Assembly (NCBI GenBank): GCA_944325635.1
Contig: CALVBD010000002.1
Span: forward strand, 124,001 to 188,000
Reading direction: 5' to 3'
Length of the DNA: 64,000 bases
Origin: Candidatus Gastranaerophilales bacterium
Lineage (GTDB): Bacteria; Cyanobacteriota; Vampirovibrionia; Gastranaerophilales; Gastranaerophilaceae
The notes under the pieces were generated by a model. The model was given only the letters and a program-made list of their open reading frames with translations. It was not told the DNA's origin and did not search any database. Position numbers and translations under genes: made by a program. Positions 11,310-16,918 of the stretch are shown here, one piece after another; position 1 is the first letter of the stretch, and the number at the start of each line of letters is the position of its first letter.

Positions 11310-12404
11310 TTAATCTTCCTTATGAGCTTCTTCAAATGCGTTAAGCATCGGTTCGTATTTTCTGAATTTTGCAAAGATTTCCTGTGCATCTTTCATTGTT
11401 TTCAGCTGTTTGATGAATTCTTTTCTCGGAACAGCCGGAATACCGACAACGATAGATTTTTCAGGGAAGGATTTTGTAACCCCTGCTTTTGCTGTGATAA
11501 TTGTGTCAGAGCCGATGTTGATATGGTCTGCAAGACCTGCCTGACCTGCAATAACTACTCTGTCGCCGATGACGCAGCTTCCAGCAATCCCGACTTGAGA
11601 TACAATTAAGCAGCCTTTGCCTATTTTACAGTTGTGACCAATCATAACAAGGTCATCAATTTTTGTATTGTCGCCAATTGTAGTGTTTTCAATTGTGCCG
11701 CGGTCGATTGTTGTGTTTGCGCCAATTTCGACGTTGTTTCCGATTTCGACGGCTCCGATTGAAGGAATTTTGAAAATAACCTGTTTAATATTTTCTTCTT
11801 TAATAGCGCCTTCTTTTCTTGCCTGTTCGATGTTGTCAGGATTTTCTGTTACAAAGCTGAAGCCGTCGGCACCTAGTGATACGCCGTGGTGAAGGATTAC
11901 ATCATCACCGATTTTAACTCTGTCGCCGATATTAACGCCCGGGTGGAAGAAACAGTTTTTACCGATTTTAACCCCGCCGCCGATATAGGAATTTGCGAGA
12001 ATTTTTGTATTGTCACCGATTACTGCATCGTGGGAGATTACAACATTCGGTCCGATTTGAACATTTTCACCCAATTTAGCTGTTTCATGAACGGTTGCTG
12101 TCGGGTGAACACCTTTATTTACAACAGGCGGTACGTAGAAGAGGTTTAACAATTTCATCATTGCCAGACGCGGTCTTTCGACTTCAATGGTTGTAAATCC
12201 GTCGATTTGTACACCTAGTGGTACAAGAGCTGCCTTTGCTTTTGACTTGGCAAGGTTTGCAATTTCGTCTTCCCCTAATGCAAGAGCCAAAGTGTTTTCA
12301 TCAGCAAGAAGCGGGGGTGCAATATGTTCAATTTTTGCATCCTGCGCCTTTGTCAGCATACCGCCGACGATTTGCGAAATTTCTTCTACTGTAAATGTTT
12401 TCAT
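11310..12404 (-). CDS. lpxD: UDP-3-O-acylglucosamine N-acyltransferase LpxD
   Basis: 364 residues from ATG 12404, which follows an AGGAG ribosome site. The frame runs 16 codons further upstream, but that part is flanking repeat sequence. An N-terminal uridine-binding domain is followed by a left-handed beta helix of hexapeptide repeats (for example IGPNVVISHDAVIGDNTKIL), the catalytic-His region HHGVSLGADGFSFV and a C-terminal helix. LpxD adds the second hydroxyacyl chain in lipid A assembly. It is the first gene of lpxD-lpxC-fabZ and lies directly downstream of the IVS-like element. Confidence 0.95.
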   Translation of the reverse strand: MKTFTVEEISQIVGGMLTKAQDAKIEHIAPPLLADENTLALALGEDEIANLAKSKAKAALVPLGVQIDGFTTIEVERPRLAMMKLLNLFYVPPVVNKGVHPTATVHETAKLGENVQIGPNVVISHDAVIGDNTKILANSYIGGGVKIGKNCFFHPGVNIGDRVKIGDDVILHHGVSLGADGFSFVTENPDNIEQARKEGAIKEENIKQVIFKIPSIGAVEIGNNVEIGANTTIDRGTIENTTIGDNTKIDDLVMIGHNCKIGKGCLIVSQVGIAGSCVIGDRVVIAGQAGLADHINIGSDTIITAKAGVTKSFPEKSIVVGIPAVPRKEFIKQLKTMKDAQEIFAKFRKYEPMLNAFEEAHKED

Positions 12405-12422: not shown

Positions 12423-12892
12423 TTGGTGAATAGTGAGTGGTGAGTAGTTCAATATAAATTGTTACTACTTATGTTCACAATCAGTTTTATTGTTTAAATA
12501 TTTAACTAAACCCAATATAAGTTTTTTTACGGTTTCTACTTGTTTAATTAAATCTTCGTTTTCTTCATACATCTTAAGATTTTTTGCTATTATTAGTTGT
12601 GTTTCTAATTCTGCTGCCGAGCCGATAGCAATACTCAAAAAATTTAATGTCTCTTTGTCGGAGAATCTTGCGCATCCCTCTGCAATATTGGAAGGAATTG
12701 ACACTGCACTTCGTCTCATCTGATTAACAATGCCATACAGCTCCTCTTTTGGAAATTGACTTGTTATGTTATAAATATTTGTTACAAGTTCTATAGATTT
12801 GTTCCAAACTTCTAAATCTTGGTGTTTCATTAATTTATATAAAACCTTTCATAAAAATTATGTTGAACCATTCACTACTTACTATTCACCAT
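12423..12892. mobile_element. IVS-like element: inverted repeats around a four-helix-bundle gene
   Basis: Arms at 12423-12452 and 12863-12892 are inverted copies, 25 of 30 positions identical, built from TTCAC-type units (TTGAAC at the inner end, ACTATTCACCA at the outer end). Between them lies one gene for a 23S intervening-sequence-type protein. The right arm covers the last codons and the stop of rfaE2. Transposase is absent. The layout is like the 23S rRNA intervening sequences, but here it sits between rfaE2 and lpxD. A related pair of arms without the gene lies at 16750-16918. Confidence 0.6.
12465..12830 (-). CDS. Four-helix-bundle protein (23S rRNA intervening sequence type, S23/bIVP)
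   Basis: 121 residues, the normal length of this family. It matches well: the start KHQDLEVWNKSIELVTNIY, the central block QMRRSAVSIPSNIAEGCAR, and FLSIAIGSAAELETQLIIA before the last helix. These proteins fold as four helices and assemble into pentamers with a basic channel; the Avd protein of diversity-generating retroelements is a relative. No reverse transcriptase or template repeat is nearby, so a DGR role is unlikely. The natural function of the family is not settled. It lies inside inverted repeats. Confidence 0.9.
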   Translation of the reverse strand: MKHQDLEVWNKSIELVTNIYNITSQFPKEELYGIVNQMRRSAVSIPSNIAEGCARFSDKETLNFLSIAIGSAAELETQLIIAKNLKMYEENEDLIKQVETVKKLILGLVKYLNNKTDCEHK

Positions 12893-13346
12893 TCACTTTA
12901 TTAATAATACCGGTAGTTGATTTTCCCTGAACGAATTGGATAAACTCGACTCTCGTGCCGTTTTTCTTCATAATATCGGCTTCCGGGAGTGTATCCATAT
13001 TGTAGTCTGCGCCTTTTGTGTAGACATCGGGTTTTATTTCATCCAGAAGATTACGCGGGCTGTCCTCGTCAAACAAAACAACATAATCCACACATCTTAA
13101 CGCACTTAAAATTTCTGCGCGATCGTTTTCATTGTTGATGGGACGGGTCGGGCCTTTTATTGAGCGGACGGATTTGTCGGAATTTAAAAGTACAATACAA
13201 TAATCCGCAAAGGATTTCGTTTTTTCAAGATATCTTACGTGTCCGACATGCAGAATATCAAAACAGCCGTTTGTGCAGACAACGGTTTTTCCTTCTCTGT
13301 GGATTTTGTCGACTAAATCTTTTACCTCATCTCTTTTGATTAACAT
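12882..13346 (-). CDS. rfaE2: D-glycero-beta-D-manno-heptose 1-phosphate adenylyltransferase-type protein
   Basis: 154 residues, the stand-alone cytidylyltransferase-fold domain of HldE/RfaE. The nucleotide-binding motif is NGCFDILHVGHVRYL (about 26-40) with its HxGH signature, followed by LNSDKSVRSIKGPTRPIN and QGKSTTGIINKV. The enzyme adenylylates heptose 1-phosphate to make ADP-heptose for the LPS core. The last codons and the TAG stop lie inside the inverted-repeat arm of the adjoining element, so the final residues (VNGE) are probably repeat-derived. The kinase half (HldE N-domain) is not in the window. Confidence 0.92.
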   Translation of the reverse strand: MLIKRDEVKDLVDKIHREGKTVVCTNGCFDILHVGHVRYLEKTKSFADYCIVLLNSDKSVRSIKGPTRPINNENDRAEILSALRCVDYVVLFDEDSPRNLLDEIKPDVYTKGADYNMDTLPEADIMKKNGTRVEFIQFVQGKSTTGIINKVNGE

Positions 13347-16749: not shown

Positions 16750-16918
16750 GTGAGAAGTGAGTTGTGAATAGTGAATGGTCGTTCAATGTGCTTTGCACGA
16801 AATAAAGATAGTAAAAGGAGCAAAAGTTGACAAATTTAACAAATAATAGTTCCGGTAAAAACGGAAATAACAACTTGTTTTTGTCGAACCATTCACCACT
16901 CACCACTCACTTTTCACC
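16750..16918. repeat. Empty copy of the TTCAC inverted-repeat element, overlapping the priA start
   Basis: Arms at 16750-16786 and 16881-16918 are inverted copies of the same TTCAC-type sequence that brackets the four-helix-bundle gene at 12423-12892. Inside are only about 95 bases, including the priA ribosome site and TTG start, and no four-helix-bundle gene. The right arm is translated as NHSPLTTHFSP in PriA. Confidence 0.65.

Follow-up and report, generated by a model that had tools for sequence, protein, structure and literature searches.

An intervening-sequence-type gene between inverted heptamer arms at the rfaE2-lpxD junction of a Candidatus Gastranaerophilales genome, and similar elements in many phyla

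A gene of the type found in 23S rRNA intervening sequences (IVSs) lies between rfaE2 and lpxD in the 64,000-nucleotide stretch of a Candidatus Gastranaerophilales genome analysed here (the window), which raises the question of what such a gene belongs to when it stands outside rRNA, and how it came to be there. Intervening-sequence elements are known mainly from inside rRNA genes, and to our knowledge there is no agreed origin or function for those of 23S rRNA, nor for their protein family (IVP).

The gene order on the minus strand is an rfaE2-like cytidylyltransferase gene (12882-13346, PF01467), the IVP gene (12465-12830, 121 amino acids, identified as an open reading frame with profile matches), and lpxD (11310-12404). 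The element is a DNA insertion of about 470 nt in sense, extending from the last codons of rfaE2 to the ribosome-binding site of lpxD, and its ends are inverted arms of 37 nt each, 84% complementary and spaced 394 nt apart: in gene sense, the 5' arm TGGTGAATAGTAAGTAGTGAATGGTTCAACATAATTT (12855-12891, minus strand) and the 3' arm AATTTATATTGAACTACTCACCACTCACTATTCACCA (12424-12460, minus strand). Both are built of imperfect ATTCACT-type heptamers (TGGTGAA TAGTAAG TAGTGAA TGGTTCA), a motif that occurs 11 times in the window versus 0.10 times expected from dinucleotide shuffles. The rfaE2 stop codon TAG (12882-12884, minus strand) is located inside the first units of the 5' arm, and the lpxD start codon (ATG at 12404) is preceded by AAGGAG just beyond the 3' arm. 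The predicted RNA fold of the unit closes on its arms (-93.3 kcal/mol, z -3.1, equalled by none of 100 shuffles). An Rfam search of the window gave no match, and the flanks are rfaE2 and lpxD, not a 23S rRNA gene. The sequence-only reading from which this work started, that an IVS-type gene lies here outside rRNA, that inverted repeats enclose it as part of one unit, and that one of them supplies the stop codon of rfaE2, is thus upheld in all three respects.

The family assignment is clear: the protein matches PF05635 (23S_rRNA_IVP) at 129.3 bits (cut-off 33.8, E 8.6e-38) and TIGR02436 (four helix bundle protein) at 128.3 bits (cut-off 24), and its gene is the only PF05635 gene of this genome. 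IVP is a pentamer-forming four-helix bundle, and structures of its relatives have been solved (2gsc, XCC0516; 2rld). PF05635 proteins resemble Avd, the accessory protein of diversity-generating retroelements (DGRs) (PMC10053308), and the window protein is a distant homologue with the same fold as Avd/bAvd (PF22296), but scores below the cut-off of the bAvd model (20.1 versus 40 bits). This kinship suggests that IVP may bind nucleic acid.

Comparison of 13 genomes of the genus indicates that the junction is polymorphic. It is empty (22-26 nt) in eight of them, and the IVP element is present only in this genome (G000) and in its sister G006, at the same junction in both, which makes an assembly artefact unlikely. 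At the same junction, G004 and G005 have a GIY-YIG gene that begins within the same heptamers, and G008 has a different arm pair with no gene; the site has therefore been hit or re-used more than once. In the element-bearing site, the ancestral end of rfaE2 (AATAAAATGAAAAATAATTAAATAAGGAG in G009) is replaced from the last codons onward; no target-site duplication is visible at rfaE2-lpxD, where the nearest empty sites have already diverged. The expectation that relatives would have empty sites is therefore borne out, and the position of the gene beside lpxD is not conserved. The small GIY-YIG nuclease gene of G005 (L063, contig C21) and G004 (L064, contig C20) starts within the heptamer array and is followed by REP-like GTCATTGCGAGCG repeats; GIY-YIG was considered as a mobiliser and rejected, being found in all 13 genomes whether these are rich in heptamer arrays or not.

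The inverted arms are not peculiar to this locus. Among the PF05635 genes of the class that score above the cut-off, nearly all lie between inverted arms of 7-8-nt units, and the unit differs in most genomes (e.g., GGAATAA, AAGTGATT, GTGAAGG, GATGCGTA, AAGGCGAT), whereas the genes below the cut-off in class relatives have no inverted arms. A scan of named genomes yielded 80 loci from many phyla, two archaeal records among them, and in 56 of the 79 testable loci the arms score above the 99th percentile of controls, for which 281 windows were taken from these loci; the set, made up of the 80 best among more than 587 matches to a class-specific alignment and later enlarged with further genes from the same genomes, is neither unbiased nor independent. 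After enlargement with multi-copy genomes, inverted arms are found in 106 of 149 distinct genes with readable flanks. The best period among these 106 armed elements is 7 in 44, 8 in 24, 9 in two and 12 in one; 35 have no clear period, and none has a period of 5, 6, 10 or 11. G exceeds C in the 5' arm of 99 elements and falls short of it in four (54 and 1 before the set was enlarged, versus 41 and 38 in the control), and the median element length across phyla is 485 nt. One named genome, of a rumen Candidatus Gastranaerophilales (L143), has an arm unit nearly identical to that of the window (GTGAGTAGTGAATTGTGAATAG). The 23S motif AGTACGAGAGGACC is present in none of the loci searched, and no paper linking PF05635 genes to inverted heptamer arms was found in the open-access literature of PubMed Central.

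Up to 17 PF05635 genes are present per genome, at separate places. Near-identical copies within one genome are absent from the sampled multi-copy genomes, the copies being approximately 65-80% identical in their aligned parts, and therefore the gene itself gives no sign of a recent burst of copying. The tree of 51 IVPs is too poorly resolved to prove transfer.

The elements are placed in a consistent manner with respect to transcription. At co-directional junctions 65 are in sense and 5 antisense (p 2e-14), PF05635 elements with no clear arms being 27 in sense and 1 antisense; 85 of 93 elements have a co-directional gene upstream, versus 74% of control pairs; and in 55 of 96 (57%) the 5' arm contains the end of an upstream frame of 100 codons or more, versus 4.6% at control positions, orientation and stop-in-arm figures being taken from slightly different subsets of 93, 96 and 101 elements. 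The stop supplied by an arm at rfaE2 is thus an instance of a rule that holds beyond this site. The upstream stop lies a median of 5.5 nt from the outer end of the arm. The upstream genes are diverse as judged by sequence, the flanking genes being mechanically called open reading frames, with names that come from reading the sequences or, in some cases, from Pfam. Stops in all three frames occur in 57% of 5' arms, versus 30% of dinucleotide shuffles, an excess that is partly explained by the periodicity of the arms: because neither 7 nor 8 is divisible by three, one stop per unit spreads over all frames, and this may be the reason why these two periods predominate.

The consistent sense orientation would suit an RNA intermediate, and together with the resemblance of PF05635 proteins to Avd, which extends to the faint match of the window protein to the bAvd model, it would fit a DGR-like retroelement in which IVP acts like Avd and a reverse transcriptase in trans copies the element RNA. 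The six genomes of the genus that are rich in heptamer arrays, this one included, have no match to the reverse transcriptase profile RVT_1, and such a retroelement is very improbable here.

The arms of each element are matched to one another and to their gene. Similarity between the two arms of one element is 0.69, versus 0.13 to the arms of other elements, and the more alike two proteins are, the more alike are their arms (Mantel r 0.18, reached in none of 2000 permutations), whereas the DNA just outside the arms, taken as a flank control, does not follow protein identity (r -0.02). Five class relatives (L041, L045, L037, L032 and L043) have an IVP element at rimP-nusA, with proteins 45-61% identical and with differing arms; each arm scores 24-45 against its own partner, clearly above foreign arms in most, but not all, pairings. 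As far as sequence comparison goes, the correlation shows that arms and IVP gene are inherited together. We infer in addition that the protein recognizes the arms; co-inheritance alone would also produce the correlation.

Arms are also abundant in this genome apart from the gene. The arm pattern has 140 matches, versus 20 for a reversed control pattern, and 842 kb of the genome contain 89 heptamer arrays, most with one terminal sequence (TTGTTGAACCATTCACTACTCACCAYTCACTATTCAC), of which many form short gene-free hairpins. The sequence-only reading was therefore right to expect further copies of the arms, and the genome has dozens of these to one four-helix-bundle gene. Within the genus, the pattern is found 200 times in G006, 140 in this genome, 86 in G005, 80 in G004, 30 in G009 and 18 in G008, and 0-1 times in the others. 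PF05635 genes above the cut-off are present in five of the six array-rich and none of the seven array-poor genomes (the p value of 0.005 assumes independent genomes, which they are not). Elsewhere in the class, samples of 80-120 kb contain few or no arm-only copies, and a genome-wide arm family is therefore claimed for this clade only: it is a trait of the clade and not of every genome with an IVP gene.

This abundance invites the explanation that the arms are the ends of miniature repeats, a family mobilized in trans by a Y1 (RAYT-like) transposase, with the IVP gene a passenger caught between two copies. The arm-only copies do far outnumber the single IVP gene, the arrays often adjoin REP-like hairpin repeats, and Y1_Tnp has almost the same distribution as IVP (four of six array-rich and none of seven array-poor genomes of the genus); yet the array-rich G005 and G009 have no Y1_Tnp match, heptamers are absent from the flanks of the RAYT gene of this genome (contig C8, 1-900), which carry the different repeat GTAGGTTGGGGTTTCTACCCCAAC, and a passenger would not be expected to have inverted 7/8-mer arms as a rule across phyla. 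A transposase-borne passenger is accordingly judged unlikely. The RAYT-like gene itself (200-725 of L101, on contig C8) is the sole Y1 transposase gene of the genome and lies between GTAGGTTGGGGTTTCTACCCCAAC-type copies, a repeat family of its own.

REP-like hairpin repeats of two kinds (GTCATTCTGAGGGC...GAATCCAGCTTTT and GGCTGGATTGCTTCGG...GCAATGACG) often adjoin heptamer arrays at many sites of this genome (e.g., L090 and L086). REP hairpin loops were considered as an insertion target, many arm-only copies being next to such repeats, and this idea was dropped because the IVP unit at rfaE2 does not adjoin them. Several arm-only regions differ greatly in length between this genome and G006 (396 versus 21 nt, 569 versus 43, 782 versus 35, and 528 versus 45), and the intergenic regions of the two genomes differ by mosaics of several REP-like families. 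The presence or absence of arm-only copies was rejected as proof of arm movement: what was inserted is a patchwork of several repeat families, and movement therefore cannot be credited to the arms in particular.

A second matched pair of the same arms (16750-16917) was correctly noticed at priA, where it had been taken for an empty copy of the IVP unit. That interpretation fails because the enclosed stretch is host sequence: the arms flank the ribosome-binding site, start codon and N-terminal linker of priA, with no IVP gene, and translation runs through the right arm, which encodes a piece of the PriA linker. Other genomes of the genus differ at this position: arms of the GGTTGAAA type occur in G004 and G009 and a plain inverted repeat (GGGACAAAGA/TCTTTGTCCC) in G001 and G011, while no inverted pair is present in G002 and G010. 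A simple insertion unit does not account for matched arms around priA sequence. They would be accommodated if arms were local regulatory hairpins that owed their growth and symmetry to replication slippage and hairpin-templated correction, and IVP were an ordinary, immobile operon gene with a regulatory role at the RNA level; the unlike inverted pairs or missing pairs of related species at priA, and the five rimP-nusA elements with their different but matched arms, point in the same direction. Against this stand the presence and absence of the element at rfaE2-lpxD within one genus, the diversity of upstream genes and the up to 17 copies at different places in one genome, and the dispersal of the same terminal sequence dozens of times in this genome, so that we regard purely local hairpins as improbable.

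The reading that we favor, and consider probable though by no means secure, is that the unit is a transcript-borne element of the 23S-IVS type, carried in mRNA instead of rRNA, with an IVP that helps it to spread. The transcript of the operon would read through the unit, whose arms mark the element in DNA. Heptamers of the first arm supply the stop of the gene upstream, and a stop in each unit is available whatever the frame. Once transcribed, the arms would pair into a predicted stem of about 30 bp around the IVP reading frame, with the layout that is cut by RNase III in rRNA IVSs, and the unit is probably processed there. Most likely IVP, a relative of Avd, acts by binding the arms between which its gene lies, and it would help the element to spread, as well as, in this clade, arm-only copies in trans.

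Among known systems, the closest likeness is to the 23S rRNA IVSs of Coxiella burnetii and Leptospira with an S23p/IVP reading frame, which encode a protein of the same family and are likewise short units with inverted ends around a reading frame, within the transcript of a host gene. The Coxiella IVS is cut by RNase III in vitro and has a 28-bp terminal stem and, as here, tandem heptamers before its reading frame (PMC4990558). Unlike the 23S IVSs, the present element has a protein-coding operon as its host transcript, contains the stop codon of the upstream gene in its arm, and has heptamer arrays on both sides. The STRR repeats of cyanobacteria and the TAACTGA repeats of Beggiatoaceae are also dispersed intergenic arrays of a 7-nt unit, for whose spread in the latter case "no mechanism is evident" (PMC4679880); compared with these as described, the arrays here are paired in inverted orientation, and a PF05635 gene can lie between them. 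REPIN/RAYT systems and MITEs share with this genome the many short gene-free inverted-repeat copies and one genomic gene with matching ends, but the gene here encodes a four-helix bundle instead of a Y1 transposase, and the ends consist of tandem 7/8-mers whose sequence varies from genome to genome.

A wider interpretation, which we offer tentatively and hold to be somewhat doubtful, is that PF05635 genes mark out one class of autonomous mobile elements that are carried in transcripts and occur across phyla. Such elements would have a terminal code of their own, in which the cognate four-helix-bundle protein recognizes inverted arms of 7/8-nt units, and would insert in sense at stop codons within operons; rRNA IVSs and some genomic heptamer repeats would be special cases or relics of them. 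If this were true, their movement would depend on no transposase or reverse transcriptase known so far.

The layout links two puzzles, that of the 23S intervening sequences with their IVP family and that of the genome-wide heptamer repeats described without a mechanism, and it yields a simple rule: sense orientation, an operon junction, a stop in the first arm, and inverted 7/8-mer arms. The way in which these elements persist and spread thereby becomes directly testable, through binding of the arms, cutting from mRNA, and movement.
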